A stretch of 24,881 bases of DNA, from IMG/VR virus record IMGVR_UViG_3300048930_000491, positions 1-24,881 of that record; one strand, given 5' to 3'. The position numbers and the translations under genes were made by a program. Source of the stretch: a virus. This document shows positions 7,299 through 24,881 of the stretch, piece by piece. Within the stretch, counting starts at the first letter, position 1, and the number at the start of each line of letters is the position of its first letter. The notes below the pieces were generated by a model. It saw only the letters and a program-made list of their open reading frames with translations, made no database searches and was not told the DNA's origin.

Positions 7299-7300
7299 GG

Positions 7301-8833
7301 TCAGCTCTCCAGCCGCATCAGGGCGGCGGCCTGGGTGGTTTCAATGTCGGACAGCAGCGCATGGCCACCGGCCAGCCAGTGGTCGGCGCGGGCCAGGGTT
7401 TCGGCGACGTGGTCAGCGGCAGCGGCCTCGGACACGGCCATGACGTCGGCGACGAAGCGCGCATGTCCGTCGAACGCTTCGGCCAGGGCCTGCGCCTTGT
7501 CGGCGGCGCCGTGGCAACGCTTGATGAGCGCGACCTCTTTGCGGGCCACGCGGTCGGCGCTGGCCTGCAGGAGTGCCACGGCGCGGGCATCTGGCAGCGC
7601 GGGCGGCACGGCAGGCTGCAGCAGTGCATCCGGGTCGCGCCCGCGCGCCTGGTCAGCGCCGCGGCTGCCGGCCGGGGCCATGTTCAGCGGTTCGAGAGGT
7701 TCGTCCAGGCCGTCCAGCGCGTTCATGTTCTCGCGCTCGCGGGCTTCGTTGCGCACCATCCAGCCGTCCTGGATGGCCTTTCCATAGGCTTCGTACCGGG
7801 TCTTGGTGTCGCCGCGCAGCAGGCCGTCGAGCAGGAACTCCGGGAAGTGGTCGGGCCCGAAGTCGAGGTCGCGCAGCAGCGTCTGCTCCCAGCGGCGGGC
7901 CCAGGGAAGGATGCAGTCGCTGACCCATTCGAGCGCGGCTTGCTCGACGTTGGCCCACTTGGCCTGGTCGTAAATGCCGATCTTGTGCGGCGGCACGCGC
8001 CACAGGCCGCAGATGTCGACCTCGCTGTGCTTGCGGGATTCGAGCCACTGGCTGTCGGCCGGGCTCAGTGGCAAGGCGTGCAACTTCATGCCCTGATCCA
8101 TGACCGGCGTACGGCCCTGGTTGACACCTGTTGTGCCGGCATGGAACTGGCGGAGCATGCTTTGACGCGATTCTTCATCCTTGAATTTCGCCCCGGCCGG
8201 CATTTCGATCCACGTTGGAGGCCGGGCAGCGTTGCCGAAGTAGGTGGCGCCGAAGTCGCGGCTGGTGATGGCAGCGCCAATGGCCTCGCGCTCGGCCTCG
8301 ACGGGGTTGATGCCGCAGTAGCCGTCGGTGCTGAAGCCGGCGAGGTGCAGCACCTGTCCGAAGACGAGCGTTCGCTCGCGGCCCTGCGCGTCCTGGGTGC
8401 GGTAGCGCGGCAGGCCGCTTGGCGCCACCTCGACGCGCGTGCGCTGCGGGTGCAGTGGCAGCAGCATGTCTGGCATGCCGGCGCCGTTGTAGACGATCTC
8501 GCTGTAGCCGTTTCCCAGCAGGCTGGCATGGCCCTGCATCATCTCGCGCCACTGCATGGCGGTCTGCCATGGGTTGGGCTGCACCTGCAGCAGCCGGGCC
8601 AGCGGGTGCGATGCGTCGCGCTCCTTGCCGCGCTCCTTGCCGCGCTGCAAGCGGCGGTACACCGGCATGGGCAGTGCGCCAACGGTTTCGGCGATGGCGC
8701 GCACGCACTTGTAGACGGTGGACAGGCGCAGCGCGGTGTCGGCATTGACGCGGGCACCGCCGGCGCTGTGCGCCACCGGCATGTACCAGAAGTCGTCGCC
8801 AGCGCTGCGGCCGGGAGCAGAGGCCAGGAACAT
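7301..8833 (-). CDS. Portal protein, HK97 family
   Basis: The product has 510 residues. The frame stays open far upstream, but the start at 8833 (MFLASAPGRSAGDDFWYMP) is chosen because it overlaps the stop of the small upstream gene as TGATG and gives a normal portal length. Family features: LSTVYKCVRAIAETVGALP (residues 42-60), LLGNGYSEIVYNGAGMP, LPLHPQRTRVEV, EVDICGLWRVPPHKIG and WEQTLLRDLDF. The portal is the dodecameric DNA gate at the head vertex. The C-terminal 110 residues are Ala-rich and helical. A basic repeat (RGKERGKER) occurs near residue 65. Confidence 0.93.
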   Translation of the reverse strand: MFLASAPGRSAGDDFWYMPVAHSAGGARVNADTALRLSTVYKCVRAIAETVGALPMPVYRRLQRGKERGKERDASHPLARLLQVQPNPWQTAMQWREMMQGHASLLGNGYSEIVYNGAGMPDMLLPLHPQRTRVEVAPSGLPRYRTQDAQGRERTLVFGQVLHLAGFSTDGYCGINPVEAEREAIGAAITSRDFGATYFGNAARPPTWIEMPAGAKFKDEESRQSMLRQFHAGTTGVNQGRTPVMDQGMKLHALPLSPADSQWLESRKHSEVDICGLWRVPPHKIGIYDQAKWANVEQAALEWVSDCILPWARRWEQTLLRDLDFGPDHFPEFLLDGLLRGDTKTRYEAYGKAIQDGWMVRNEARERENMNALDGLDEPLEPLNMAPAGSRGADQARGRDPDALLQPAVPPALPDARAVALLQASADRVARKEVALIKRCHGAADKAQALAEAFDGHARFVADVMAVSEAAAADHVAETLARADHWLAGGHALLSDIETTQAAALMRLES

Positions 8834-8991: not shown

Positions 8992-10754
8992 GCGAAGGTG
9001 AACTCGTAGTCGGCGCCGATGACGACTTCTGCATCGGCAGGCTTGCTGGCGATGCCGCGCGCCATGATGGCGGCCAGCACCAGGTCGATGCGCCCACTGG
9101 CGCGGCGCTTGCTGAGCTTGCGGTTGCCGGCGTCGTCTTCCACGATGACGGCATTGGCGGCGCACCAGGTGAGCACGGGGTGTGCTGGGTGCACCAAGTT
9201 GCCGGCGATCAGGTCGGATTCGAAAGTTTCGATGGCGGGCGCCATGTCTTTGTAGCCCTGGCCGAACTCGACCAGCGGCGGCAGCGTGATGCCGGCGTCG
9301 TCGGCCATGGCCTTGAGGTCTGCGATGCGCCAGCGGTCGTAGGCCACGGCCACGATATCGAGCTGCGACGCCAGCGCCGCCAGGCGCTGCAGCACGTGCA
9401 GTTTGCTGATGGCCGGGCCCGGCGTGGTGAGCAGGTGACCATCGCGCACCCACTGGGTGTAGGGCACTTTGTCCTGGCGTTCCCGATCCATCAGATCCTG
9501 CTCGGGCAGCCAGGCAAAGGGCAGAACGCGCCAGGGCTCGTCGGCCTGAAGGGGCTCGATCAGCAGCGCCAGCGCGGTGAGGTCGGTGGTGCTGGACAGG
9601 TCCAGGCCCGCATAGGCTCGGCGACCGCGGAACTGCTCGAGCGCGTAGCTGCGCGCGGCCGGCATCCACACGGTTGGGCTGAGCCAGGGCGCATCGGCCT
9701 CGGTCCACTGGCAGAAGTTGAGCCGGCGCACCAGGGCCTGCTTGCTGGGCAGGCCGCGTGCTGCGGTGACCTCGCCGCGCAGGTACTCCAGGCCCGGCAG
9801 GTTAGCCTCCTGCAGCGACGGGTTGGCCTTGGGCCAGCATCGCTCATCGTTGAACGGGTCGTCGGTTTCGTCGAGGTTGCAGACGAAGCCAAAAAAGGCG
9901 TCGTCCTCGACCACACCGGTGGCCACCTGCAGCGCATAGTCGTGGTACTGGCCGCAGGTGCTGGTTTTGTCGTGGCCGCTGTTGGTGATGCAGAACAGCA
10001 GCGGCTGTCTGCGGCTCTTGAAGCCGGCCCGCAGCATCTCGATCACGTGATTGCTGGGGTGCTCGTGCAGCTCGTCCACCAGCGACACGTGCGGGCGCGG
10101 GCCGCTCTGCCCCTGGTCGGCGCTGATGGGGCGGAAGAACGACCCCATCTTCGGGTACGAAAGGTTCCAGACCTTCTCGTTCATGCCGCTGGGCACCAGG
10201 CGGCGCAGCAGGTCGGGGCTCTGCTGGAACATGGCGACGGCGTCGCGGAACAGGATCATGGCCTGGTCGCGCTTGGTGGCGGCGGCATAGACCTCGGCCC
10301 GCGCCTCGCCGTCGGCCGTCAGGCCGTGCAGCCCCACGCCGGCCGCCAGCGGGCTCTTGCCGCTGCCCTTGGCCGTCTCGACGTAGGCCACTCGGTAGCG
10401 GCGGGTGTCGTCGGCGCGCTTCCAGCCGTACAGACTGCCCACGACAAAGCCCTGCCACCCCAGCAGGCGAAACGGCACGCCCTCGAACTGGCCGCCGTTG
10501 AGCCGCAGCACTTCCTCGAAGAAGGCGCAGGCCTCCAGGGCGGCCGGCAGATCCCAGCGCAGGCCGCGGGCCGGGGCTTCGTCAAGGTCGCGCAGATGGC
10601 GCGCAGCAGCGGCGCGCACACCCGGGCCGGCGATGACCTTGCCGGCGGCCACGGCCTGCGCCCAGGCGGTCACGCGGTCGACCAGCGTCGGCTTGCGCGG
10701 CGCGCGCCTGCGGGAAGCGGCCTTCGGGCGGTCGGCGACGGCGGCTTCGGTCAC
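8988..10754 (-). CDS. Terminase large subunit, Terminase_1 type
   Basis: The product has 588 residues. The start is GTG at 10754, overlapping the small-subunit stop as GTGA. The ATPase domain has Walker A (ETAKGSGKS, 126-134) and Walker B with catalytic Glu (VSLVDE, 223-228), followed by the coupling segment FCITNSG. The nuclease domain shows the acidic strands YAGLDLSSTTDL and VAYDRW and the late RIDLVLAAIMA segment, consistent with an RNase H-like fold. It packages DNA into the prohead through the portal and cuts the concatemer. It lies directly after terS and before the portal block, the classic order. Confidence 0.95.
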   Translation of the reverse strand: MTEAAVADRPKAASRRRAPRKPTLVDRVTAWAQAVAAGKVIAGPGVRAAAARHLRDLDEAPARGLRWDLPAALEACAFFEEVLRLNGGQFEGVPFRLLGWQGFVVGSLYGWKRADDTRRYRVAYVETAKGSGKSPLAAGVGLHGLTADGEARAEVYAAATKRDQAMILFRDAVAMFQQSPDLLRRLVPSGMNEKVWNLSYPKMGSFFRPISADQGQSGPRPHVSLVDELHEHPSNHVIEMLRAGFKSRRQPLLFCITNSGHDKTSTCGQYHDYALQVATGVVEDDAFFGFVCNLDETDDPFNDERCWPKANPSLQEANLPGLEYLRGEVTAARGLPSKQALVRRLNFCQWTEADAPWLSPTVWMPAARSYALEQFRGRRAYAGLDLSSTTDLTALALLIEPLQADEPWRVLPFAWLPEQDLMDRERQDKVPYTQWVRDGHLLTTPGPAISKLHVLQRLAALASQLDIVAVAYDRWRIADLKAMADDAGITLPPLVEFGQGYKDMAPAIETFESDLIAGNLVHPAHPVLTWCAANAVIVEDDAGNRKLSKRRASGRIDLVLAAIMARGIASKPADAEVVIGADYEFTFA

Positions 10755-11224
10755 TGGAAGAAGCGCGCCGTGCCGGCTGGCTCAGTGGGTTTGCCGAACA
10801 GGTCGCCCTGCGGGTCGACCATCACGCGCGAACGGCTGACGGGGTCCATTCCGAACCGAGCCATGAAGGCCTCGGCACGCTTGCTGCTCATGGCCATGGC
10901 CACGTGCAGCTGGTTCAGCATCTCGCTGCCCTTGGCGCTGGGCCTGACGAAGGTGTCGCCGCGCTCGCGCCGCGTCTTGCGGTAGTCGGCCACGGCGTCG
11001 CACAGCATCTCGAGCGCGATGGTGTCGGCCACCGTCAGCACACCGGTGCGGCTGAGGATCGGAGCCACCTGGCGCCACACCGCAGCCGAGTCGGCGGCCA
11101 GGTGCGTGGGCGGCTCAAGGTCGAGCAGCCGGTCGGGCTCGGGCTCGTTGCCGTTGCGGCGGTCTGCCCGGTCGGTGCCCTGCATCTGCTTGAGCGCCGA
11201 AGGCTTGGGCAACCTACCCGCCAT
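10751..11224 (-). CDS. Terminase small subunit, P27 family
   Basis: The product has 157 residues and starts MAGRLPKPSALKQMQGT, typical of the P27 family (basic start, then a conserved EPPTHLAADSAAVWRQVAPIL helix and LEMLCDAVADYRK). It recognises the packaging site and recruits the large subunit. The start at 11224 follows a G-run; a start four codons upstream at 11236 (after AAGGTGG) is equally possible. The first bases overlap the end of the HNH gene. Confidence 0.92.
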   Translation of the reverse strand: MAGRLPKPSALKQMQGTDRADRRNGNEPEPDRLLDLEPPTHLAADSAAVWRQVAPILSRTGVLTVADTIALEMLCDAVADYRKTRRERGDTFVRPSAKGSEMLNQLHVAMAMSSKRAEAFMARFGMDPVSRSRVMVDPQGDLFGKPTEPAGTARFFQ

Positions 11225-15079: not shown

Positions 15080-15116
15080 ACGCCCCATCGGCCACCCCGG
15101 CCGCATGGAGGCGAAG

Positions 15117-15596
15117 ATGCACACCCCCCGCACCGGCACGAGCCGGACGCTGCTGGCCCAGGCCACGCAGCGCGCCCACGAAGAGCTGAACCGCCGGCTG
15201 GCCGAGCTGCACCAGCTGGCCCCGCTGCTCGAGCGCCTGGAGCCCGTGCTGCCGGCCCTGGCCGCCCAGGGCCTGGAGGTCTACCCCAGCGACATCGGCC
15301 ACATCTGGCACCAGCCTGACCCCGGCAGCCCGCGCCGCCTGCGCGCGCTGCGCATCACCACCCGGCTCCTGACCAGCGACACCAGCCGCTGCCAGCACTG
15401 GCTGGACGCGCTGACGGCGCAGGGCTTCCGCGAGATCCACCGCGACGACTACCTGCACTACCCGCAGGCCGTGCTGCAGCGCGGCCACCTGCTGCTGGTG
15501 GTGGACGCCCCCGCCCCGGCCAGCACGGCCGCCGCCGCGGCCAAGGTGGCGCACCAGCGCCGCGCCGAAGACGCCTTTGCCGAGGCCGCGGCATGA
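15117..15596 (+). CDS. First gene of the early operon, unknown function
   Basis: The product has 159 residues from the ATG at 15117, chosen over the one at 15105 because GGAGG lies five bases before it. An N-terminal coiled coil (LLAQATQRAHEELNRRLAEL, residues about 12-45) precedes an alpha/beta segment (LEVYPSDIGHIWHQPD, LRALRITTRLL, QGFREIHRDDYLHYPQAVL) and an Ala-rich helical tail. No family recognised. As the first early gene behind a repressed promoter it would be made soon after induction. The stop overlaps the next start as ATGA. Confidence 0.75.
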   Translation: MHTPRTGTSRTLLAQATQRAHEELNRRLAELHQLAPLLERLEPVLPALAAQGLEVYPSDIGHIWHQPDPGSPRRLRALRITTRLLTSDTSRCQHWLDALTAQGFREIHRDDYLHYPQAVLQRGHLLLVVDAPAPASTAAAAAKVAHQRRAEDAFAEAAA

Positions 15597-15841
15597 GCAC
15601 GGCCGCCCGCGTCATCAGCGCCGCCCAGCGCCGCCCGGCCCTGCCGCGCCGGTTGTGGCTGCACCTGCAGCGTGCCGTGCTGCTGTGGAACACCAACAGC
15701 ACCGAGCAGTACATGGCCGCGTGCGAACGAGACGGCATCATGGACGGCGAGACAATCCGCGCCTGGCGGGCCCACCTGTGCGCCGAGCGCGTGCGGCTGG
15801 CGGTGCTGGAGGCCGCCCTGCGTGGCGAGGTGCAGCCGTGA
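15593..15841 (+). CDS. Small early phage protein
   Basis: The 82-residue product is helical: RRLWLHLQRAVLLWNTNSTE, then QYMAACERDGIMDGETIRAW and LCAERVRLAVLEAAL. Short proteins of this pattern are common in phage early regions, but I know no function for them. The ATGA overlap upstream and GTGA overlap downstream place it in the coupled operon. Confidence 0.7.
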   Translation: MSTAARVISAAQRRPALPRRLWLHLQRAVLLWNTNSTEQYMAACERDGIMDGETIRAWRAHLCAERVRLAVLEAALRGEVQP

Positions 15842-16092
15842 GCCGCTACGCACCCCGGCGCCCGATGTTCAGCGACACGATGCCGATGCCGGAGCCTGAC
15901 CAGATGGCGCGGCCGGCCTGCAGCGCCGACGCCTGCCGCGGCGGGCGCCGGCCCTGCCCCTGCCCCGAGGCCTGCCAGCTGCAGGCCGACGAGCACGCCG
16001 CCGCCACGCAGACACCGATGCGCCGCGCGGTGGCCGTGGCGGTGCTGGCCGTGTGCCTGGCCTGCCTGTGGGCGGCGTGGTCGGCTGCCTGA
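15838..16092 (+). CDS. Cys-rich protein with C-terminal membrane helix
   Basis: The product has 84 residues with a GTG start overlapping the previous stop as GTGA; an internal ATG (MFSDTMPMPEPD) is possible. The middle has six Cys in 27 residues (CSADACRGG, PCPCPEAC), suggesting metal binding or disulfides. Residues about 63-83 form a hydrophobic helix (AVAVAVLAVCLACLWAAW) at the very C-terminus, like a tail anchor. Function unknown. Confidence 0.6.
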   Translation: MSRYAPRRPMFSDTMPMPEPDQMARPACSADACRGGRRPCPCPEACQLQADEHAAATQTPMRRAVAVAVLAVCLACLWAAWSAA

Positions 16093-16114
16093 CGCGCTTT
16101 GGCGATCGAACACC

Positions 16115-16453
16115 ATGAGCGAACCACCCCGCCAGGGCCGCCTGATCGAAGACGCACGCGCCGGCGTGCGCGGCGACGGCACATACACGCTGCGCGTGGA
16201 TTTCAGCCCGCCACACCCGCCTGGCGGCAAGCCGCGCCGCTACGTGGCGGTGCAGGAGCTGGGCACCGGCCCGGCCGCCAGCCTGGTGGCTCGCAGCAAG
16301 GCCAACAGCCTGCGCCGCGGCGTGCTGGTGCGCGTGCTGGCCAGCACCGAAGAGGACAAGCGCGGCCGCAGCTGGCTGCACGGCGTGCAGCAGATCGAGG
16401 CGCCCGACATGCCGCCACCGGCGTGGCTGGGCCGGCAAGCCCGGGACGACTGA
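16115..16453 (+). CDS. OB-like small protein (possible ssDNA-binding), copy 1
   Basis: The 112-residue product reads as a five-strand barrel: YTLRVDFSPPHPPGG, RRYVAVQELGTGPAASLVA, LRRGVLVRVLAS, SWLHGVQQIEAP. The central part resembles the frameshifted gene at 18391 (YHVQQDLGTDP ... LKRGALVSATG), so the two appear to be diverged paralogues. The pattern of a strand, an insert and then RRGxLVxV recalls SSB-type OB folds, but no conserved SSB motif is clear. This is the first gene after a 22-base gap in the operon. Confidence 0.6.
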   Translation: MSEPPRQGRLIEDARAGVRGDGTYTLRVDFSPPHPPGGKPRRYVAVQELGTGPAASLVARSKANSLRRGVLVRVLASTEEDKRGRSWLHGVQQIEAPDMPPPAWLGRQARDD

Positions 16454-16455
16454 CC

Positions 16456-16740
16456 ATGACCCCCACAGACCCCCGCATCGACATGGCCCTGGCCGAGCGC
16501 CGGCTGGCCGAGGCCGCCGTGGTGTCCGACATCGAGTGCAACGGCCTCCACGCCCGGCATTTGGGCCAGCGCGTGTGGGACGTGCGCGCCATGACCGACC
16601 CGCGAGAGCACTGCCCGCAGGTGGTGGACATGACCCGCCAGGCGCTGGCCTACGCCGAGTGGCGCGGCCTGATCCGCGTGGTCGAGCGCATGGCCTGCGG
16701 CGCCCCGGCCATCGTGCGCGTGCTGCGCAACCCGGGCTGA
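16456..16740 (+). CDS. Small helical phage protein, copy 1
   Basis: The 94-residue product starts two bases after the OB-like gene. It is helical (LAERRLAEAAVVSDIECNGL), and its C-terminal half (QVVDMTRQALAYAEWRGLIR, then VERMACGAPAIVRVLRNPG) resembles the end of the protein at 19107 (TLDIHRAYLAYADLRRLITR ... HLVLITRRP). The shape (two helices then a beta-hairpin) could be a winged helix. Function unknown. Confidence 0.6.
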   Translation: MTPTDPRIDMALAERRLAEAAVVSDIECNGLHARHLGQRVWDVRAMTDPREHCPQVVDMTRQALAYAEWRGLIRVVERMACGAPAIVRVLRNPG

Positions 16741-16742
16741 GC

Positions 16743-17159
16743 ATGGCCGCACCCGGTTTTCTGGTGGTGGGTGAGCACGTGGCGCGCAACCCGATCGCCC
16801 GCGCCATCGCCCGCCAGCGCATGCACGCAGCGGCGCGTGACTTCGCCATCCAGGTGCATCTGCTGCCCGACGGCGCCGACGTGCGCGCCGAGCTCAGCGC
16901 CGCGGCCCGCGTGCTGGCCGTGGCCGTGCGCGTGACCGAGCGCCGCTGCCGCACACCCGAAGACCGCGACACCCCTGCCCTGCGCGTGATGGCCGGCGGC
17001 ATGGGTGCCGTGGCCCAGTGCAGCGAGCGCCGCTGGCGCTGGCGCAGCCTGGACGCCGTGGCCGTGGACCGCGCGCTGCAGGAAGCCCTGGCCGTGCTGC
17101 GCGACGCGCACCCGCAAGAGACCCGCGAGGCCTGGCTCTACGTGGAGAGCCTGCCATGA
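16743..17159 (+). CDS. Early phage protein, unknown function
   Basis: The 138-residue product has a short N-terminal strand (PGFLVVGEHVARNP), a basic helix (ARAIARQRMHAAARDFAIQV), a central AELSAAARVLAVAVRVTERR and a C-terminal LQEALAVLRDAHPQETREAW. Alternating hydrophobic and basic residues suggest a nucleic-acid-binding alpha/beta protein, but no motif supports a name. It follows its neighbour by two bases and ends in ATGA. Confidence 0.65.
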   Translation: MAAPGFLVVGEHVARNPIARAIARQRMHAAARDFAIQVHLLPDGADVRAELSAAARVLAVAVRVTERRCRTPEDRDTPALRVMAGGMGAVAQCSERRWRWRSLDAVAVDRALQEALAVLRDAHPQETREAWLYVESLP

Positions 17160-17377
17160 CGCCGCCGCGCGCCTGCATGGGCGGCTGGGGCTGCCCGCGG
17201 CGAGAGCGCTGCGGGCACCACCAGACCGAGCGCCGATGGCTGCCGGCCGAGCGCCTGTGCATGCCCGGCCAGTTTGACCAATGGACACCGCTGGATGCGC
17301 CCGCGACGCCGCGAGGGCCTGCTGAAGACTCGTCGACCACCACCAACACCCAGCCCCACCTGGAGACCACCCCATGA
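17156..17377 (+). CDS. Small Cys-rich early protein
   Basis: The 73-residue product has Cys in the arrangement ACMGGWGCPRRERCGHHQ ... RLC within the first 35 residues, a small zinc-finger-like pattern often seen in phage early genes, then a disordered Thr/Pro-rich tail. The start is fixed by the ATGA overlap with the upstream stop, and the end overlaps the next start in the same way. Confidence 0.6.
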   Translation: MTPPRACMGGWGCPRRERCGHHQTERRWLPAERLCMPGQFDQWTPLDAPATPRGPAEDSSTTTNTQPHLETTP

Positions 17378-17685
17378 GCCACCGCGCCGATCTCAACACC
17401 CTGGAGCGCACACCTTGGGCCCTGCCCACAGCGCCGACGCTGGCCGCGCCAGGAGCCGCTGCGCCACAGCACCAGGACGACGATGCCGACGCCTTCGAGG
17501 TGCTGGCCTGGCACCGCGCCGACCGGCGCAAGCCGGATGCCGACATCACCGTGCTGCTGTGGGGCGCCGACGGCTTCTTCACCGGCTACTGGGACGACGA
17601 GGCCCAGCAGTGGATCGACTGCGCCAGCGGCGGCGTGCGCGAGGTGGCGCCCACGCACTGGGCCAACCCTGAGGGCCCTCTGTGA
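17374..17685 (+). CDS. DUF551-like phage protein
   Basis: The product has 103 residues. The second half, ITVLLWGADGFFTGYWDDEA, then QQWIDCASG and VAPTHWANPEGP, matches the pattern of DUF551 (a strand with VL, a variable region, then THWxPLPxPP near the end), common in phage early regions. The molecular role is unknown. ATGA-coupled upstream. Confidence 0.65.
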   Translation: MSHRADLNTLERTPWALPTAPTLAAPGAAAPQHQDDDADAFEVLAWHRADRRKPDADITVLLWGADGFFTGYWDDEAQQWIDCASGGVREVAPTHWANPEGPL

Positions 17686-18011
17686 TGCCGCAGCACACGC
17701 CCTTGCGGCCAGGCCAGGGTGAGCAGATCACGCCGGACGCTCTGGCCCGCGCCGGCCAGCACGGCCTGAACACCCAGCAGGTGGCCAACGTGCTGCGCGT
17801 GACATGCAACCGCGCCAGCACCGTGCTGTGCCAGCTGATGCGCGCCGGCCAGGCGGCGGGCACAGCCATCGCGTCGGTGATCCGGCTGTTGCTGGTGGCC
17901 CTGACGGCCATGCAGCTGGGCGGCTGCGGCGGCGGTGACTGGCCCGAAGGCGACACCGACGTGCCCCGCCCCGGCGTGGACTGCCAGGCCCGGCCGGAGC
18001 TGTGCGCATGA
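17685..18011 (+). CDS. wHTH-like protein with lipoprotein-like C-terminal part
   Basis: The product has 108 residues from ATG 17685; GTG 17682 is one codon upstream and overlaps the previous stop as GTGA. Residues 12-53 (EQITPDALARAGQHGLNTQQ, VANVLRVTCNRASTVLCQL) look like a winged-helix DNA-binding unit. Residues about 58-80 are a hydrophobic segment ending in MQLGGCGGG, like a lipobox (L-G-G-C), followed by a short acidic, Cys-containing tail. A DNA-binding unit fused to a lipoprotein-like or membrane segment is odd; the internal segment may simply be a transmembrane helix. Confidence 0.6.
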   Translation: MPQHTPLRPGQGEQITPDALARAGQHGLNTQQVANVLRVTCNRASTVLCQLMRAGQAAGTAIASVIRLLLVALTAMQLGGCGGGDWPEGDTDVPRPGVDCQARPELCA

Positions 18012-18394
18012 TGCCCGGCCGCCACCGCCACCACGGCCACCACAGCCAGCCGCCTCTCAGCGCCGAGACGGCACTGGGCGTCATCCTGGCCTGCGCCATC
18101 GGCGCGCTGCTGTGCATCGCCCTGGTGAGCTGGATGCTCTGCAGCCAGAGCGCCGACACCGCCGCGTGCAGCCTGCTGGTGCCTGCCCTGCCCCTGCACG
18201 GCGCACTGCGCCGCCTGCGCCACCTTTGGCTGCGCTGGCTGATGTGGCTCAACACCCGCCGCATGGCCGAGACCGAGCGGCAGATCGCGCAGTACAGGCG
18301 CCTGCTGGCCGACGACCGGCTGAAGCTGGAGTGCCTGCGCAACCAGCTCAGCGCGCAGCAGAGCCGCCAGCTGGTGCTGGGCAGCGAGCAATGA
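18008..18394 (+). CDS. Membrane protein with coiled-coil tail
   Basis: The 128-residue product begins with a His-rich stretch (RHRHHGHHSQ), then a strong transmembrane helix (about 20-45, ALGVILACAIGALLCIALVS) and a second, amphipathic or membrane-associated segment (HLWLRWLMWLN, about 75-86). Residues 88-125 form a coiled coil (ETERQIAQYRRLLADDRLKL). Its topology resembles a spanin or Rz subunit, but it lies in the early operon away from any lysis genes. Both ends overlap neighbours by ATGA. Confidence 0.65.
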   Translation: MMPGRHRHHGHHSQPPLSAETALGVILACAIGALLCIALVSWMLCSQSADTAACSLLVPALPLHGALRRLRHLWLRWLMWLNTRRMAETERQIAQYRRLLADDRLKLECLRNQLSAQQSRQLVLGSEQ

Positions 18395-18793
18395 GCGCCG
18401 CGGCCATCCTGCGGCCGCCGCCGCGCGCCGCCGCGCGCCGCCGCGCTGCCCGACGTGCACCAGATCCGCGTCGTCGGCGTGCTCGAGCACGACGCCGAGC
18501 TGCGCTACACCGCCGGCGCCGAGCCACACGCTCTGCTGGTGCTGCAGATCCAGCCGCCGCGCGGCCTGCGCTACCACGTGCAGCAGGACCTGGGCACCGA
18601 CCCAACCGACCACATGCACGCCGAAGCCCGCCTGGTGGGCCTCAAACGCGGCGCGCTGGTCAGCGCCACCGGCGGCTGGCTGCGCCTGCAGATGGACCAC
18701 GGCCACCAGGTCCTGGTGCTCGTGCAGTGCACCAGCGTCATCCAGCACGCCACCGCCCCACCCCCTTCCAGCCCTCAGGAGGCCACGTCATGA
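18391..18793 (+). pseudogene. OB-like early gene, frameshifted by a 10-bp repeat, copy 2
   Basis: The ATGA-coupled start at 18391 reads MSAAAILRPPPRAA and then enters a tandem repeat of CGCCGCCGCG (18416-18446, 3.1 copies). After it, the plausible protein (VHQIRVVGVLEHDAELRYTA, then LLVLQIQPPRG, YHVQQDLGTDP and LKRGALVSATG) is in another frame, open from GTG 18455 to 18793. With two repeat copies the whole gene is in frame, about 130 residues. With three copies the start frame instead runs through Arg-rich nonsense and joins the next gene (18790) in frame. The downstream part resembles the OB-like protein at 16115. Either a slippage-switched gene, a recent mutation or a sequencing error. Confidence 0.7.
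18416..18446. repeat. 10-bp tandem repeat, three copies
   Basis: CGCCGCCGCG occurs three times in a row plus one base, within the coding sequence of the frameshifted gene. Ten bases is not a multiple of three, so each gain or loss of a copy changes the reading frame; two copies restore it. Confidence 0.9.
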
Positions 18794-19110
18794 CCCTGAC
18801 CATCGCCCCCGCCCGCCACGAGATCATGTGGCGCGACGGTTCCGCCATCGGCGTCCACCCGGTGCTGCGCGACGGCGTGCCCGAGATGTACCTGCGCGCC
18901 CTGCCCGGCCAGCCCGCCATCGTCATCGACCTGCGGCGCGTGGCCCCCGGTATCGAGCAGGACATGGCGCCCGCCCCGCAGCGCGACAGGCCCGGCATCG
19001 TCTTCTTCACGCTGCGGCACCGGTACCGCAACGCCGCGCACTTCTGCGACGCAGCCGTTACCACCGGCCGCGTGGACGTGCAGGCCCTGCAGATGGATGC
19101 CGCAGCATGA
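18790..19110 (+). CDS. Early phage protein, unknown function
   Basis: The 106-residue product begins MTLTIAPARHEIMWRDGSAI and is beta-rich (GVHPVLRDGVPEMYLRALPG, QPAIVIDLRRVAP, GIVFFTLRHRYRN) with a C-terminal HFCDAAVTTG. Aromatic and charged residues alternate as in a small beta-barrel. The ATG overlaps the stop of the preceding reading frame region as ATGA. It may be expressed as a fusion to the shifted frame of that gene (see there). Confidence 0.65.
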   Translation: MTLTIAPARHEIMWRDGSAIGVHPVLRDGVPEMYLRALPGQPAIVIDLRRVAPGIEQDMAPAPQRDRPGIVFFTLRHRYRNAAHFCDAAVTTGRVDVQALQMDAAA

Positions 19111-19427
19111 GCGGCGACCGCCTCTTCCCGCAGGAAACGCCGGCGCTGCCCACCCTGGGCAAGCCGGACCCCACCGCCACCTGGATCGCCGAAGTCAGCC
19201 GCCAGGCGGTGGCGCTGACCGACTACAGCGCCATCGAGCTGATCGAGCTCTACGCCGACGCGCTGCCCGACGGCTGGCTGGACGTGCGCCCGCTGGTCGA
19301 CGAGCGCGAGGTGCGCGTGCCGACGCTGGACATCCACCGCGCCTACCTGGCCTACGCCGACCTGCGCCGCCTCATCACCCGCCACCCGGTGCACCCGCAC
19401 CTGGTGCTCATCACCCGGAGGCCTTGA
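19107..19427 (+). CDS. Small helical phage protein, copy 2
   Basis: The 106-residue product is helical: PTATWIAEVSRQAVALTDYS, AIELIELYADALPDGWLDVR, then VPTLDIHRAYLAYADLRRLI and a beta-like HPHLVLITRRP. Its end resembles the protein at 16456, giving a second occurrence of that family downstream of an OB-like gene. ATGA-coupled to the upstream gene; its stop overlaps the next start as TGATG. Confidence 0.6.
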   Translation: MSGDRLFPQETPALPTLGKPDPTATWIAEVSRQAVALTDYSAIELIELYADALPDGWLDVRPLVDEREVRVPTLDIHRAYLAYADLRRLITRHPVHPHLVLITRRP

Positions 19428-19786
19428 TGCCCAGAGCCCAACCCGCAGGCCGCGACCTGCCCGACCACCCGGTGCAGCGCACCGTGCCCGCCAACAGCGT
19501 GTTCCAGCAGGCGCAGCAAACCGCCGGCAAGTACGTGCGCCACCCCGTGGACATCAGCAAAGTGAAGGTCTACCGCGACCGGCCGCTGCCCAGCGTGACC
19601 ACGGGCCGCGGTGCGCTCAGCGACTACGCCCGCATCTACGACGAGCTGCTCACCCAGCCCGGCATGAGCGTGGACCTCACGCCCAAGCAGGCCAAGAGCA
19701 TGATCAGCTGGGGCAAGAAGAACGGCAAGAAGCTGGCCACCCGCGTGCTGGGGCCCGACCTGGCCGGCGTCTGGCGCTTGAAGTGA
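19427..19786 (+). CDS. Basic early phage protein, unknown function
   Basis: The 119-residue product has a disordered start, then NSVFQQAQQTAGKYVRHPVD, KVYRDRPLPSVTT, a helical segment SDYARIYDELLTQPGMSVDL, and a basic C-terminal unit TPKQAKSMISWGKKNGKKLA ... VWRLK. The last part, with a helix followed by KKNGKK, could bind nucleic acid. No family recognised. It precedes the parB-like gene by ten bases. Confidence 0.65.
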   Translation: MPRAQPAGRDLPDHPVQRTVPANSVFQQAQQTAGKYVRHPVDISKVKVYRDRPLPSVTTGRGALSDYARIYDELLTQPGMSVDLTPKQAKSMISWGKKNGKKLATRVLGPDLAGVWRLK

Positions 19787-19796
19787 GGGCTGCAGC

Positions 19797-21608
19797 ATGA
19801 ACACCACCACCGAAGCCGTTTTTACCCGCCTGCCGCTCGACCGCCTGCACGAGAGCCCCTTCAACCCGCGGCGCACCTTCACGGCCATCGACGAGCTGGC
19901 GGCCGACATCAAGGCCCAGGGCGTCATCCAGCCCATCGTCGTGCGGCCCATCGTGCCGCCGCTGTTCGACGCCGGCGCCGACACCCCGGCCGAGGCCGTG
20001 GCCGGGCACGAGATCGTCTGCGGCCACCGGCGCTTTCGCGCCGCGCAGCTGGCCGGCCTGGTCGACATGCCGGTGCTCATCCGCAGCATGACCGACGAGC
20101 AGGCCCGCCTGGCGCAGATCAGCGAGAACCTCAGCCGCAAGGACGTGCACCCCTTCGAGGAGGCCGAAGGCTTCCAGGCCCTGATGCGCGACCACGGCTA
20201 CAGCGCCGACCAGCTGGCCCAACATTACGGCCAGAGCCGCAGCTATGTGTACGGGCGCCTGAAGCTGCTGCAGGCCTGCCCCGAGATCCGCAACGCCTGC
20301 CTGGCCGGCGAGATCGGCGCCGAGACCGCGCTGCTCATTGCCCGGCTGCGCAACGACAAGCTGCAGGGCAAGGCGCTGGGCTACATCCGCGGCAAGGGCT
20401 ACGACCTGAAGGACGGCGGCAAGCGCAGTTTCCGCAACGTGCAGTCGCTGCTGAAGGAACACTTCACCCTGCACCTGCGCAGCGCCATCTTCCCGCCTGA
20501 GGATGCCGAGCTCGTGCCCGCTGCAGGCGTCTGCAGCACCTGCACCAAGCTCAGCGGCAACGCGCCGGAGTTCCAGGACCTGGCCAACAGCCGCCCCAGC
20601 CCGTGGTTCCGCGGCGAGCGCGAGAAGGGCGAGCCCGACCTGTGCACCGACCCCGACTGCTTCGCCACCAAGAAGAAGGCCCACCTGGTGCGCGAGGCCG
20701 CCCGCCTGCGGGCCGAGGGCAAGGTGGTGGTGGACGGCGGCAAGGCGCTGCAGGCCGTCAGCGCCACCGGCGAAGTGAAGGGCGCCTACGTGGCGCTGAA
20801 GGATGTGAAGGCCGCGCTCAAGGCTTCGAAGGTGAAGCCCGCCACCGTGCTGATCCAGGACCCGCGCGGCGGCAAGCTCTTCGAGGCCGTGAAGCGCGAA
20901 GACCTGCAGGCGGCCGGCCTGGCCGACAAGGAAGCGCCGGCCGCCCGCGGCCGCACCGGCGGCTACGACTACGAAGCCGACCGCCGCGAACGCGAGGAGC
21001 GCGAGCAGCAGCGCCTGGCCGAGACCGAGGCCAACCGGCGCCTGCTGCGCGCCGTGCACGACGCCGCGGGCGGCCGCAACCGCACCACCGACGAACTGCG
21101 CCTGGTGCTGCGCCACCTGATCGAGGAGCTGGACAACGGCGAAGACGGCCCCGAGCTGCAGCGCCTGTACGGCGACACCCCGCTGCACCAGATGGTCAAG
21201 CTGCTGCCCACCATGACCGCCGACGCCCTGGGCCTGCTGCTGCTGGATGTGCTGCTTGTGCGCGGCGTGGAGTGCCAGTACTGGCAGATCGGCGCGCCCG
21301 AGCCGCTGGTGCAGATGGCCGAGCTGCACGGCATCGACGTGGACGCGGCGCGGGCCGAACCCGTGCAGACGCCCGCACCTGCCGAGGCCGCGTCTACCCC
21401 ATCCGAGGCTGGCGCGGGCGCGAAGAAGGGCGCGCGCGGCAAGGCTGCCGCCAAGGCCGCCGGGCACAAGGCCACGGCCGCAACCACCGACGAAGCCGGC
21501 CTGTTCGACGGGGAAGACGAAGAACAGAAGGACGACGCCGGCTCCGCCGGCGGGGCGGAGGTCGTGAGCTCTGCCAACTGGCCATTCCCGAGGAGGGTCG
21601 AGGCATGA
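19797..21608 (+). CDS. Orphan ParB/Spo0J-like protein with zinc-binding insert
   Basis: The product has 603 residues, twice a chromosomal ParB. The ParB N-terminal domain spans about 10-115 (PLDRLHESPFNPRRTF, GVIQPIVVRP, CTP-binding motif CGHRRFRAA at 75-83, ENLSRKDVHPFEEAEGF at 110-126). A helix-turn-helix follows (SADQLAQHYGQSRSYVYGRL, 136-155). Residues 246-288 carry a Cys set (CSTC, CTDPDC) likely to bind zinc. About 395-430 is a charged coiled coil, and the last 100 residues are an Ala/Lys-rich linker with an acidic tail. No ParA is encoded nearby, so plasmid-style partition is unlikely; related phage proteins have been discussed as early DNA-binding or nuclease proteins. The zinc segment is an addition to the standard fold. 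Confidence 0.85.
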   Translation: MNTTTEAVFTRLPLDRLHESPFNPRRTFTAIDELAADIKAQGVIQPIVVRPIVPPLFDAGADTPAEAVAGHEIVCGHRRFRAAQLAGLVDMPVLIRSMTDEQARLAQISENLSRKDVHPFEEAEGFQALMRDHGYSADQLAQHYGQSRSYVYGRLKLLQACPEIRNACLAGEIGAETALLIARLRNDKLQGKALGYIRGKGYDLKDGGKRSFRNVQSLLKEHFTLHLRSAIFPPEDAELVPAAGVCSTCTKLSGNAPEFQDLANSRPSPWFRGEREKGEPDLCTDPDCFATKKKAHLVREAARLRAEGKVVVDGGKALQAVSATGEVKGAYVALKDVKAALKASKVKPATVLIQDPRGGKLFEAVKREDLQAAGLADKEAPAARGRTGGYDYEADRREREEREQQRLAETEANRRLLRAVHDAAGGRNRTTDELRLVLRHLIEELDNGEDGPELQRLYGDTPLHQMVKLLPTMTADALGLLLLDVLLVRGVECQYWQIGAPEPLVQMAELHGIDVDAARAEPVQTPAPAEAASTPSEAGAGAKKGARGKAAAKAAGHKATAATTDEAGLFDGEDEEQKDDAGSAGGAEVVSSANWPFPRRVEA

Positions 21609-21856
21609 AGCTGTCCAGAAGGCGCCGTGCAGCACACCTGCGCCGCTGGCCGGCAGACCTGCCACGGGCGCAGATCGTCAACATCCAGCCTGGCGACACG
21701 CTGGTGGTCTACACGCAGCCGCTGCTGAATCGCGAGCAGATCGAGCACATGAAGGCCCGCTTGCAGAGCGCGCTGCCGATGAAGGTCCGTGTGCTGGTGT
21801 TCGACAACCAGGCGCGCCTCGACGTGCTGCGTGCGCGGCTAGGAGATGGCGGATGA
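21605..21856 (+). CDS. Small early phage protein after ParB
   Basis: The 83-residue product has a basic start (MKLSRRRRAAHLRRWPADLP), then an alpha/beta unit: IVNIQPGDTLVVYTQPLLN, REQIEHMKARLQSALP, MKVRVLVFDNQARL. The order strand-helix-strand suggests a compact single domain with no visible active site. It is ATGA-coupled to the parB-like gene and to the next gene. Confidence 0.65.
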   Translation: MKLSRRRRAAHLRRWPADLPRAQIVNIQPGDTLVVYTQPLLNREQIEHMKARLQSALPMKVRVLVFDNQARLDVLRARLGDGG

Positions 21857-22176
21857 AGGCGGACAAGGTCATTGCCGGCCGACAGCTAACCGCCGACCTG
21901 GCCAAGGCGCTGGGCCTGCCCAAGCACACCAAGAAGGCCGTGCTCACGCTGGTGGAAGGCGAACTGCCCACGCTGGAGCTGACCATGCACGCGACGGATT
22001 CCAACGGGCGCCTGGTGCTCGAGGCCGACCCGGGCGACCCGGTGGCCAAGCGCGTGGCGCAGGTGCAGTTCATGGTGCGGCTGGAGCCGTTCCCGCCGCT
22101 GCGCAACGTTCGAGCTGTGCGGACCGGAACCGGCTGCACGGCAGACCCGCAGCGCGACGAAGCCGCGGGCCGGTGA
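21853..22176 (+). CDS. Last phage early gene; 3' end lies in attC1
   Basis: The 107-residue product has a beta-rich body (MKADKVIAGRQLTADLAKAL, GLPKHTKKAVLTLVEGELPT, LELTMHATD, VAQVQFMVRLEPFPP). Coding beyond about residue 82 (from base 22101) is attC DNA, so the last 25 residues (VRAVRTGTGCTADP ...) are written by the integron site. The original phage gene probably ended elsewhere and was cut or fused there. The body has no recognised family. ATGA-coupled start. Confidence 0.65.
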   Translation: MKADKVIAGRQLTADLAKALGLPKHTKKAVLTLVEGELPTLELTMHATDSNGRLVLEADPGDPVAKRVAQVQFMVRLEPFPPLRNVRAVRTGTGCTADPQRDEAAGR

Positions 22177-22203
22177 CGGTCCGCACGAGCGAGTTGTTAT
22201 GGC
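22101..22203 (-). other. attC: attC1, distal end of the array, at the phage junction
   Basis: On the minus strand it starts GCCATAAC (22203-22196), continues AACTCGCTCGTGCGG with A 15 bases after the core, and ends CAGCTCGAAC-GTTGCGC (22107-22101). Arms GTGCGGACCG and CGGTCCGCAC pair over ten bases. Its inner halves closely resemble attC2. The R' core GTTGCGC departs from GTTRRRY at one position. It overlaps the end of the last phage gene. Confidence 0.8.
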
Positions 22204-22226
22204 GCTGCCGACGAAGCGAGGACACG

Positions 22227-22442
22227 ATGGCACGACGACGATTTCGATGGACCCGCGAGCGCTACCGCAAGGCGCAGCACCTGGCGCGGTTCTTCAGCCG
22301 CTGGGTGTACGAACTGCCAAGCGAGCCGCCACGATTGCTGCAGCGCTACTTCGAGCTGTGGGAGCGCCACCCGCAACGGGACGACCCGCTGCTGCAGCCT
22401 GTGCGCTACCGCTACGACAGAGACATGGAGATCCCATTTTGA
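22227..22442 (+). CDS. Small basic/aromatic cassette protein
   Basis: The 71-residue product starts MARRRFRWTRERYRKAQHLA and continues with FFSRWVYELPSEPPRLLQRY, FELWERHPQRDDPLLQ, YRYDRDMEIPF. It is rich in Arg and aromatics, helical, with no known domain. GAGG precedes the ATG by a normal distance within the shared cassette leader GAAGCGAGGACACG. Its stop overlaps the TTG start of the DUF4326 gene, so the two are coupled. Confidence 0.6.
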   Translation: MARRRFRWTRERYRKAQHLARFFSRWVYELPSEPPRLLQRYFELWERHPQRDDPLLQPVRYRYDRDMEIPF

Positions 22443-22744
22443 CCAAGCCGCACCGCGTGCAACTCTCCCGCGCCAAAGGCTGGCGCATGCCGCCCAACAC
22501 CGTGAAGGTGGCTAGGCCGTGCCTGTGGGGCAACCCGTTCGTCATCGGCCAGGATGGCGTGAAGGATGCGAACGAGGCTGTGCAGCGCTTCGAGGACTGG
22601 CTCATGCCCTACGTGCAGAAGGCCCGGCCGTTCCGCATCGAGACGCTGGAGGCGCTGCGTGGAAAGAACCTCGCGTGCTGGTGCAGGCTGGATCAGCCGT
22701 GCCACGCCGATGTGCTGCTGCGGCTGGCGAACGATGCGCCATAA
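22439..22744 (+). CDS. DUF4326 family protein (cassette 4)
   Basis: The product has 101 residues from a TTG start overlapping the previous stop (TTGA); a GTG seven codons later is an alternative. Family features are clear: VQLSRAKGWRMPPNTV (8-23), WGNPF (30-34), LRGKNLACWC (73-82) and CHAD (88-91), the conserved Cys-containing end of DUF4326. This family is found mainly in phages and is thought to be related to nucleotide-binding or ADP-ribose-type chemistry, but its function is not established. The TAA stop is the last three bases of the cassette. Confidence 0.88.
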   Translation: MTKPHRVQLSRAKGWRMPPNTVKVARPCLWGNPFVIGQDGVKDANEAVQRFEDWLMPYVQKARPFRIETLEALRGKNLACWCRLDQPCHADVLLRLANDAP

Positions 22745-22840
22745 CGGCCGAGCTATGCGGGCCGACACCGGCTGCACGGCGCGTGAGATTCGAGGCGATG
22801 CGGACGGCCGGTGACGGTCCGCCTGAGCGAGTTGTTAGGC
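22738..22840 (-). other. attC: attC2
   Basis: On the minus strand: GCCTAAC (22840-22834), AACTCGCTCAGGCGG, then A, and CCGTCACCGGC; the other half is GCCGGTGTCGG ... TAGCTCGGCC-GTTATGGC (22745-22738). The left half is a canonical TAACAAyTCGyTCA type. GCGG and CACCGGC segments pair across the site. Confidence 0.85.
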
Positions 22841-23179
22841 GTGGTTCCGAAGCGTGAGGGACTTGGAATGACAGCGTTTGAAATTGACATCCTCCTGCAC
22901 TACGCGACTACGCGCGGAGACCACCCGCACATGCGTAATCCGCCTCCAATCTGGCGAGAAACCATTGACCGGTTCATGGCCGAAGGACTGCTCACTGCCG
23001 GAGGCGGGGAGGCGGATGCCGCCTACGTTGCGACGGACAGACTGCGCGCCTACTCTGAGGCGTTGCAGAGCGTTCCGCTGCCGGTTCAGGCGTGGCCTAT
23101 GCCGCCTCAGAAGCCGGTGCCTCCAGACATCGCCAGGATCATCAGCCGCAACCTGTGGAAGCTCTATGACGACGCCTAA
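22745..23179 (-). mobile_element. Gene cassette 3
   Basis: It is 435 bp long, between the attC2 and attC3 crossovers, and contains one plus-strand ORF whose TAA is the last codon before the boundary. Confidence 0.78.
22868..23179 (+). CDS. Phage-like small helical protein (cassette 3)
   Basis: The product has 103 residues from ATG 22868, preceded by GAGGGA; the frame is open back to a GTG in attC2 (22811). It starts MTAFEIDILLHYATTRGDHP, then IWRETIDRFMAEGLLTAGGG, AYVATDRLRAYSEALQSVPL and PVQAWPMPPQ. Helix, helix and wing spacing (IDRFMAEGLL then YVATDRLRAY) resembles a winged helix. Proteins with PLPVQxWxMP are familiar from phage early regions, but I know no function. Confidence 0.75.
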   Translation: MTAFEIDILLHYATTRGDHPHMRNPPPIWRETIDRFMAEGLLTAGGGEADAAYVATDRLRAYSEALQSVPLPVQAWPMPPQKPVPPDIARIISRNLWKLYDDA

Positions 23180-23269
23180 CGTTCGAGTTCAGCCGGCGCT
23201 GCCGGCAAAGGAGGATCGATGAACAACGACCGTGACCCGGCAGCGCTCGGCTGCAACGAGGAGTTAGGC
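23174..23269 (-). other. attC: attC3, best canonical match
   Basis: On the minus strand: GCCTAAC-TCCTCGTTGCAGCCG-A-GCGCTGCCGG at the left and CCGGCAGCGC-CGGCTGAACTCGAAC-GTTAGGC at the right. Arms pair over CAGCCG and GCGCTGCCGG, with one unpaired A 15 bases after GCCTAAC. Both halves match the class 1 aadA attC halves closely (TCGTT, AGCCG A, CGGCTxAACTC). The loop (about 23206-23236) holds a plus-strand AAAGGAGG and ATG. Confidence 0.92.
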
Positions 23270-23575
23270 CAGGCTCCGAAGCGTGACATTGTGGAGCGCC
23301 TGCGGACTCGCAACGGCAGCCCGACCGGCTTTGGCCTTGGCCCGGTGTGCGACGAAGCTGCCGACGAGATCGTGCGGCTGCGAGCCCGCGTTCTGGAACT
23401 GGAGGCCGTCCACGAGGACGCCAGCGGTGCCATTCTGGAAGCCGTGGCCGCAGAGCGCGAGCGGTGCATTGAGGCGTGCCGGGGCGAGTTCTTGGTAGAC
23501 GCGCAGCCGACAGAAGGAGACGTCAACTACACGATGGCGGTGTCTCACTGCATCGCGGCGATCTTGAGGGCCTAA
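23180..23575 (-). mobile_element. Gene cassette 2
   Basis: It is 396 bp long, between the attC3 and attC4 crossovers. Its ORF starts inside its own attC3 loop and ends exactly at the other boundary, so nearly the whole cassette is coding. Confidence 0.78.
23219..23575 (+). CDS. Ea22-like phage protein (cassette 2), start inside attC3
   Basis: The product has 118 residues. The ATG at 23219 has a perfect AAAGGAGG seven bases upstream, in the attC3 loop; the first about 17 residues are encoded by attC. An internal GTG near 23291 is the alternative. The body KRDIVERLRTRNGSPT, CDEAADEIVRLRARVLELEA, AVAAERERCIEACRGEFL resembles Ea22-like phage proteins (pattern EAADEIxRLRxRVxELE, then AVxAERERC). 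The function of these proteins is unknown. The TAA stop abuts the crossover point. Confidence 0.75.
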   Translation: MNNDRDPAALGCNEELGQAPKRDIVERLRTRNGSPTGFGLGPVCDEAADEIVRLRARVLELEAVHEDASGAILEAVAAERERCIEACRGEFLVDAQPTEGDVNYTMAVSHCIAAILRA

Positions 23576-23661
23576 CGCCGAAGCTCATGGGCCAGCCCCT
23601 ACGTGAGCAACGATTTTCAAACCTGCTGCCGGGGCTGGTCCCTTGCAGCGCACAGTTCGGC
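23570..23661 (-). other. attC: attC4, proximal to attI
   Basis: On the minus strand: GCCGAAC (23661-23655), TGTGCGCTGCAAGGG, unpaired A, CCAGCCCC; the return arm is GGGGCTGG-CCC ... GAGCTTCGGC-GTTAGGC (23576-23570). The single extra A is again 15 bases after the core. The arms otherwise pair over 11 bases. Confidence 0.85.
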
Positions 23662-24319
23662 TGGTGCCGGAGCGAGGAAACGATGAAGCGCGTGTATTTG
23701 AGTGGTCCGATGAGTGGCATTGAAGACAACAACTTTCCCGCGTTCCACGCCTGGGCCGCGAAACTGCGGGCCGATGGCCTGGACGTGGTGAGCCCGGCCG
23801 AGATTCAGGAGGCCGGCACCTGGGAGCTTTGCCTGCGCGCCGACTTGCGCGAGATGTGCACTTGCGATGCCATCGCGCTCATGCCTGGGTGGGAAAGCAG
23901 CAAGGGTGCAAATCTTGAGCTGCATGTCGCGCACCGGCTGGGCATGGAAGTGATGCACCTACCGCAGCAATTCGACCTGGTGCAGCACCTGCACCGGCAG
24001 ATGGAGTTCAGCGCGCGCACCTACGGCCCCGGCGACCGAACAGCCGGCGTGTGCGACCACATCCGCAAGGAACTGAACGAAGTGCAGGACGATGCCGCAG
24101 CCGGTGTGCCCACGCTGCCCGAATGGGTGGACGTGATCATCTTGGGCTTCGACGGCGCTTGGCGCAGTGGTGCCACGCCAGAGCAGATCGTGGCCGCCAT
24201 CGTGGCGAAGCAGACCAAGAACGAGGGCCGCAAGTGGCCGGACTGGCGCACAGCCGACCGTAGCAAGGCCATCGAGCACGACCGCGCCGCGGACACGGCG
24301 AGCGCCGCCTGAAGCCGAA
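23576..24319 (-). mobile_element. Gene cassette 1 (next to attI)
   Basis: It is 744 bp long, between the attC4 and attI crossovers. The end cores TTCGGC and GCCGAA are complementary and differ from the TTAGGC of the neighbours, which ties both ends to the same cassette. It carries the DUF4406-MazZ gene on the plus strand. Confidence 0.75.
23683..24312 (+). CDS. DUF4406 / MazZ-like dATP-dGTP pyrophosphohydrolase fusion (cassette 1)
   Basis: The product has 209 residues. Residues 1-95 are DUF4406, a deoxyribosyltransferase-like fold: VYLSGPMSGIEDNNFPAFH (4-22), LRADLREM (51-58), DAIALMPGWESSKGANLEL (62-80). Residues 100-200 match the phage dATP/dGTP diphosphohydrolase N-terminal family (MazZ-like): RTYGPGDRTAGVCDHIRKEL (112-131), EWVDVIILGFDGAWR (147-161; Glu147 and Asp150 are likely metal ligands), KWPDWRTADRSKAIEH. 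MazZ-type enzymes remove dATP or dGTP in phages that change their nucleotide pool. Both domains are phage-associated. The ATG follows the cassette leader GAGCGAGGAAACG; the TGA lies one base before the attI core. Confidence 0.88.
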   Translation: MKRVYLSGPMSGIEDNNFPAFHAWAAKLRADGLDVVSPAEIQEAGTWELCLRADLREMCTCDAIALMPGWESSKGANLELHVAHRLGMEVMHLPQQFDLVQHLHRQMEFSARTYGPGDRTAGVCDHIRKELNEVQDDAAAGVPTLPEWVDVIILGFDGAWRSGATPEQIVAAIVAKQTKNEGRKWPDWRTADRSKAIEHDRAADTASAA

Positions 24320-24372
24320 CTTCAATTCGACGACACCCCCTGTCCGCTAACCCACACAGCTTGTCCGCTAAC
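24314..24372 (-). other. attI: attI site
   Basis: Read from intI outward (minus strand): two direct repeats GTTAGCGGACA (starting at 24372 and 24351, 21 bases apart) and the recombination core GTTCGGC (24320-24314), 31 bases beyond the second repeat. Class 1 attI1 has the same plan: GTTATGG, GTTACGC 20 bases on, and GTTAGGC 32 bases further; these values are from memory of that sequence. The site begins 13 bases before the intI ATG and faces the array. Confidence 0.8.
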
Positions 24373-24384
24373 ACGAGCACCGCC

Positions 24385-24881
24385 ATGGACACTGCCACCG
24401 TTATCACGACACCAGCAGCGACAAAGCCGCTGAAGCTGGAAGACCAGATCCGCGCGGCGTGTCGCGTCCGGCACTACAGCCTGGCCACCGAGCGAGCCTA
24501 CGTGTCCTGGTACAAGCAGTTCGTTCGCTGGGCGGGCCTGAAGCACCCGGCCACACTGGGCGGTGATCGTGTGGAGGCCTTCCTGTCCCACCTGGCCGGC
24601 GAGCCGCGCAACGTCAGCGCCAGCACCCAGCGCCAGGCCCTGGCCGCACTGCTGTTCCTCTACCGCCAGGTACTCGGCCTGCAGTTGCCGTGGCTGGACA
24701 ACATCACGCGCGCCAAGCAGCCCACGCGCCTGCCCTGCGTGCTGAGCCAGGACGAAGTGCGGCGCCTGTTGGCCGCGCTGCCACGCACCAGCGCCGGGCT
24801 AGCCTTGTCGCTGGCCTACGGCACCGGCATGCGCCTCATGGAGATCCTGCGCCTGCGCGTCAAGGATCTGGACTTCGACCG
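24385..24881 (+). CDS. intI: Integron integrase IntI (N-terminal 165 residues; cut by window)
   Basis: A tyrosine recombinase of the integron class. The core-binding domain spans about 18-110: RVRHYSLATERAYVSWYKQF, HPATLGGDRVEAFLSHLA (54-71), VSASTQRQALAALLFLYRQV (77-96), LPWLDNITRAKQPTRLPCVL (101-120). The catalytic domain opens with LAYGTGMRLMEILRLRVKDL; the catalytic box I Arg is Arg150. HPATLG, ASTQRQALAALLFLY and the GTGMRLMEILRLRVKDLDF stretch are closer to IntI than to XerC/D or typical phage integrases. The IntI-specific insert and the remaining catalytic residues lie beyond the window, so activity cannot be judged. It reads in the same direction as the phage early operon and the cassette ORFs. 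Confidence 0.93.
   Translation, partial: MDTATVITTPAATKPLKLEDQIRAACRVRHYSLATERAYVSWYKQFVRWAGLKHPATLGGDRVEAFLSHLAGEPRNVSASTQRQALAALLFLYRQVLGLQLPWLDNITRAKQPTRLPCVLSQDEVRRLLAALPRTSAGLALSLAYGTGMRLMEILRLRVKDLDFD

Follow-up and report, generated by a model that had tools for sequence, protein, structure and literature searches.

Reversed gene cassettes in a phage-borne integron variant, likely distal genes of an early operon resembling lambda pL

Background

Integrons are usually treated as bacterial devices, in which the direction of the cassette genes is fixed by the promoter Pc. The locus studied here raises the question of how an integron is to be understood when it lies at the end of a phage operon and all its cassette genes face intI, against the orientation of their own attC sites. 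The window, by which we mean the whole stretch of DNA analysed, is an IMG/VR virus record of 24,881 bases with about 70% G+C, and represents a phage fragment. Integrons and CALINs in phage genomes have been established by Qi et al. 2023 (PMC9892861), whose assay also showed that phage attC sites are recombined by IntI1. This is the only directly relevant work in the open-licence literature that we searched (without preprints), and its sections bearing on the subject do not mention the window family, its leader or its IntI clade. Likewise, no report of reversed cassettes, of the leader or of a phage IntI clade was found in the open-access literature searched, which leaves out subscription papers and preprints.

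Results

Layout of the window

The left arm of the window carries terminase, portal and other structural genes reading leftward, and from 15105 to the window end every called gene reads rightward, with an early operon followed by four cassettes (five ORFs) and then by intI. The integron thus occupies the right end of the window, and the contig breaks inside intI (Table 1). The first-pass annotation had claimed that all genes from 15117 to 24881 are rightward and that five ORFs in four cassettes precede intI, and both claims hold by our gene calls. The layout of a rightward early operon joined to an integron is real; an assembly chimera is rejected, given that many independent contigs, as well as MAG prophages, show this arrangement.

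Table 1. Features of the right arm of the window
Feature	Position	Strand	Evidence
Rightward phage early/accessory genes before the array	15105..22176	+	Gene calls
603-aa ParB-like protein in the upstream genes	19797-21608	+	ParB_N/HTH_ParB
Last gene before the array, end inside degenerate attC1	21853-22176	+	Gene calls
attC1, degenerate, left array edge; R' box GTTGCGC on the minus strand	22101..22202	-	Repeat families with attC2/attC3, fold
Cassette gene 1a, 71 aa	22227..22442	+	Homologue in G001 (L002:7771-8064)
Cassette gene 1b, DUF4326	22439..22744	+	E 3.5e-26
attC2, crossover between 22744 and 22745	22739..22840	-	attC detector
Conserved leader, Shine-Dalgarno-like (CCGAAGCGTGAGG), before gene 2	22841..22867	+	
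Cassette gene 2, 103 aa, no family; stop in attC3 R box	22868..23179	+	
attC3	23174..23269	-	Score 56
Cassette gene 3, 118 aa; start inside attC3, stop in attC4 R box	23219..23575	+	
attC4	23570..23661	-	attC detector
Leader (CCGGAGCGAGGAAACG) before gene 4	23662..23682	+	
Cassette gene 4, DUF4406 fused to dATP/dGTP pyrophosphohydrolase domain	23683..24312	+	
attI, crossover between 24319 and 24320; two TGTCCGCTAAC direct repeats	24320..24384	-	Seven-relative alignment
intI, 5' half of integron integrase, cut by window end	24385..24881	+	TIGR02249; 94% to G001

The plus-strand ORFs match DUF4326, DUF4406 and dATP-dGTP_PPHyd, and the two domains of cassette gene 4 are a common phage early gene pair; the six antisense ORFs have no Pfam match. 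Gene 1b begins at a TTG that overlaps the stop of gene 1a, and its TAA stop is the TAA of the attC2 R box. No promoter-like site was found on either strand by a sigma-70 scan, which is weak at 70% G+C.

Polarity of the attC sites

Since no Rfam attC model gave a match, we wrote our own detector, which looks for paired R boxes, aligns the arms between them and notes the arm with the extra bases. The detector was calibrated on a class 1 array in a P1 record with annotated minus-strand genes. The well-formed sites of this array show extra bases of 2/0 and spacers of 5/6 on the minus strand, that is, in the direction of the genes, and the class 1 array therefore has normal polarity under this detector. 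In the window, attC2, attC3 and attC4 score 44.5-56, against a maximum of 40 in six shuffled windows. They have the R''-L''-L'-R' structure with extra bases in L'' and are minus-oriented, with 1-2/0 extra bases in the R''-side arm and spacers of 5/6, and folds were computed for the sites of the array. This is the minus-strand signature, so the attC sites point left while the genes read right. The first site, attC1, is degenerate but homologous to attC2 and attC3, as shown by repeat families. Overall, the four attC sites and attI are all on the minus strand and all genes on the plus strand. An opposite orientation of platform and genes had already been read in the first pass, and it is upheld by the detector, the class 1 control and the attI alignment. 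The integron criterion that cassette genes are oriented with attC, as for expression from Pc, is not met in the window family. There is no trend of attC quality with distance from intI, and because of this constancy the order of insertion remains unproven.

attI and the integrase lineage

The partial IntI of the window matches TIGR02249 (E 1e-50), and four full-length relatives (L012, L004, L005 and L006) score above the cut-off of this family. In the window family attI adjoins the 5' side of intI. In seven relatives the homology of attI begins at one base, RYYYAA|C TTCAATTC, and the first cassette beyond it differs throughout. Such a single-base boundary is what repeated insertion at one crossover would leave, an inference made from sequence alone, with no assay.

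A first tree shows that 18 phage or prophage IntI need two label changes, compared with 16.2 when labels are shuffled. In a second tree of 154 rows, which was quick, without bootstrap and with the root not inferred, a single branch (SH-aLRT 98) separates 76 phage IntI, with no other sequence among them, from the rest, and class 1 IntI1 falls near the phage group but not inside it. In the collection searched, no close IntI was found in isolated phages (best 55%), and none above 60% in phage isolates or plasmids.

As a separate observation, class 1 IntI1 and two Burkholderiales IntI join the phage IntI group with an SH-aLRT of 89.

Design of the reversed cassettes

Strand calls by longest ORF are unreliable at 70% G+C, and a codon model called some homology-supported plus genes of the relative G001 on the minus strand; for this reason we relied on leader, stop and homology tests, counted over 52 phage and 66 chromosomal attC sites. 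A Shine-Dalgarno sequence, start codon and ORF are present on the inverted side of 28/52 phage sites but only 3/66 chromosomal ones (p 1e-9), whereas starts on the canonical side number 0/52 and 17/66, respectively. The leader motif, GTTAGGC-N6-9-CCGAAGCGNGAGGA, often lies directly before the start codon on the opposite side of the attC, and is detected at 17/52 phage sites and 0/66 chromosomal sites; some phage cassettes have no leader or start inside the attC. In addition, the TAA of the R box closes a plus ORF in 30/52 phage and 13/66 chromosomal cases, and all three well-formed R boxes of the window supply the TAA stop of the gene ending there. These counts of leaders, starts and stops show that the reversal belongs to the cassettes themselves and did not arise by chance in a single insertion.

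Relatives and prophage placement

Most sequences examined here are metagenomic. The relative G001 (35.9 kb) has ten attC sites, all minus, and about 14 genes, all plus. Its array follows recombination-type genes, namely a DUF3799 PDDEXK nuclease-like protein and an adjoining phage protein, and its cargo includes DNA methyltransferases (N6_N4_Mtase three times, MT-A70 once). The same pattern is seen in G003, G004 and G008. In G002, G003, G004 and G005, intI is followed by a phage tyrosine integrase and then by leftward lysis or tail genes. Three MAG loci (L042, L043 and L044) have the element at a prophage end, adjoining tRNA-Val, tRNA-Arg and tRNA-His. Phage genes flank the integron on both sides in many contigs, and host genes start only past the phage integrase and the tRNA.

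A wider scan of IMG/VR gave 227 IntI relatives, and the best 80 loci were examined. Among them, 51 have at least three genes called upstream of intI; in 50 of the 51 these genes mostly read toward intI, and in 44 entirely so, the opposite of chromosomal integrons, whose cassette genes are directed away from intI. The 77 minus attC sites of this census have 47 inverted starts vs 1 canonical start. The loci include near-copies and a few contigs counted before (L216, L218 and L230), and are not independent events. A phage tyrosine integrase lies downstream of intI in 46 of 79 phage loci vs 0 of 53 chromosomal loci.

Among the conditions under which its reading would fail, the first-pass annotation had named a rightward terminator together with a separate host gene set before intI in relatives, and the absence of any relative with the junction. 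We found no terminator-like rightward site between 13400 and 24881 and no host gene set between the early genes and intI in relatives, and many relatives have the phage-integron layout, flanked by phage genes at either end.

Several individual loci deserve a record. Truncated intI genes are present in phage early operons at G006 475-1212 (L007) and G007 42908-43342, and in G006 all that is left of the gene is its N-terminal half, which runs into unrelated sequence. At L033:5168-6202 an intact intI of the phage clade lies in an early operon with undetectable attC, followed by a ParB-like gene. In G008, nearly the same small gene occurs twice (3500-3682 and 9267-9449) in one array with about 20 attC sites and an intI remnant. 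Just before the array of G004, the early operon encodes a protein that by eye is type IV pilin-like (10559-11026; L005 about 7233-7700).

Cassettes common to unrelated phages

A search of viral contigs with the leader pattern alone, without IntI, recovers ten contigs, of which eight are new, and these eight carry arrays without intI in the examined stretch. G001 and L124, the latter with a P22-type portal, have one cassette in common, as an exact stretch of 442 bp ending no more than 2 bases from the crossover, and their other DNA match is solely another attC region; the protein of this cassette has no match in phage isolates. L123 and L128 have one common block with both ends at GGCCTAAC and no other match between the stretches compared, and the same gene is carried by L122. 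Apart from common cassettes bounded at R boxes, these otherwise unrelated phage contigs have no strong homology, and such boundaries fit cassette excision and insertion by IntI. Some pairs (G001 and L122, 95%) have the attC alone in common; possibly the attC in such pairs behaves as an adaptor.

One further comparison concerns the near-identical phage arrays L123:4714-5182 and L127:7596-7979, the latter missing one cassette. The join in L127 lies inside the attC arms and not at the R box, which suggests homologous recombination between attC sites.

Discussion

Relation to known systems

The window family is like chromosomal and class 1 integrons in its IntI family (TIGR02249), attI beside intI, attC structure and R-box crossover, and differs from them in its reversed genes, the leader on the other side of attC, the phage operon context and the separate IntI clade. 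Like the phages of Qi 2023, it has intI, attI, attC and cassettes in phages, with methyltransferase cargo; however, in the two examples re-scored here, TJE1 and Shewanella M16-3, the cassette genes have the normal direction relative to attC. The family thus agrees with those phages in having an integron inside a phage genome, and departs from the normal cassette polarity of the re-scored examples. We file the family as an integron variant, because the direction of genes relative to attC, one defining feature, is not met.

In the pL operon of lambda, the accessory region lies between exo and int, after the recombination genes and before the integrase. The window array has the same position and direction, but its accessory genes are attC-flanked, exchangeable cassettes accompanied by an integron integrase.

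A proposed mechanism

We consider it likely that the element is an integron adapted to phages, and that its reversed cassettes make up the distal genes of an operon resembling lambda pL, with expression and recombination both inferred. The layout, polarity, leaders, attI boundary, IntI clade, prophage placement and common R-box-bounded cassettes on which this model rests are all read from the sequences. The platform is ordinary, since attI adjoins intI on its 5' side and the attC sites point away from intI, whereas each cassette is backwards: attC, ribosome-binding leader, gene and often a stop codon inside the next R box. Because the cassettes are backwards, the array, intI and usually the phage integrase are co-directional, and would be distal in a pL-like early operon. 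A phage early promoter, not Pc, would then read cassettes, intI and int together. IntI would insert cassettes at attI or swap them at attC between phages meeting in one cell, and may act in trans on phages that carry only an array. New cassettes would enter at attI, directly upstream of intI and farthest from the early promoter, the reverse of a Pc-driven array. The plus strand of the window equals the recombinogenic bottom strand of attC and, as the inferred non-template strand of early transcription, may be free to fold. The first-pass annotation had offered two options, a phage using the integron as an accessory-gene bay or cassettes adapted to a phage promoter; both are supported and merge into this one picture, in which transcription is inferred.

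A bolder reading, to which we incline by a modest margin, is that these elements form a phage integron class of their own, with a phage-specific integrase lineage and a common pool of reversed cassettes, each fitted with the same attC-leader adaptor. This pool would circulate among temperate phages that are not related and would reach phages without intI through IntI acting in trans, and its expression from the early operon would counter host defences.

Alternative explanations

The rival that survives best, though unlikely, is that the attC sites are relics, inert hairpins or terminators between phage genes, and that the arrays move by homologous recombination alone. It is favoured by the degenerate attC1, by the truncated intI of G006 and G007 and by the missing cassette of L127, with its join within attC arms rather than at an R box. 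Against it, common cassettes start and stop at R-box crossovers in otherwise unrelated phages, unrelated first cassettes begin at one base of attI, and full-length IntI pass TIGR02249.

The least probable rival is a Treponema-type integron (PMC3607928), in which intI and not the cassettes is turned, the genes agreeing with attC and attI lying 3' of intI. In its favour, intI and the cassette genes run in one direction in the window as in Treponema, and a phage with that layout exists in Virus Rctr41k, where intI and attC are both plus and attC lies downstream of intI. However, in Treponema intI reads toward attI, whereas in the window family attI adjoins the 5' end of intI and attC polarity opposes the genes, so the Treponema-type criterion is not met.

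Virus Rctr41k itself (KX853513; L119:4680-9434) is an unannotated Treponema-like phage integron: its annotated 'xerD' is related to IntI and is followed by about five attC sites, which lie on the strand that carries all the genes. Compared with the reversed cassettes of the window family, it shows that phages have arrived by at least two routes at an intI and cargo that read in one direction.

Another rival, an ordinary bacterial integron beside or picked up by a prophage with an incidental phage link, as proposed for Vibrio anguillarum phages, can draw on the capture by phages of a portion of their host's chromosomal integron (Qi 2023, PMC9892861) and on intI in 124/399 Burkholderiales genomes, but is very unlikely and contradicted by the many contigs in which phage genes flank the integron at both ends, a phage-only IntI clade and a cassette polarity reverse to that of chromosomal integrons.

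Implications

Under the phage-adapted integron model, the integron recombination system appears to have been rebuilt for phages through cassette reversal, with a pool that moves between unrelated phages. The reversed cassettes separate the polarity of recombination from that of expression, and the model predicts that new cassettes enter farthest from the promoter and not nearest to it. If true, this would provide a site-specific route by which some early and accessory genes, methyltransferases included, are exchanged among mosaic phage genomes.
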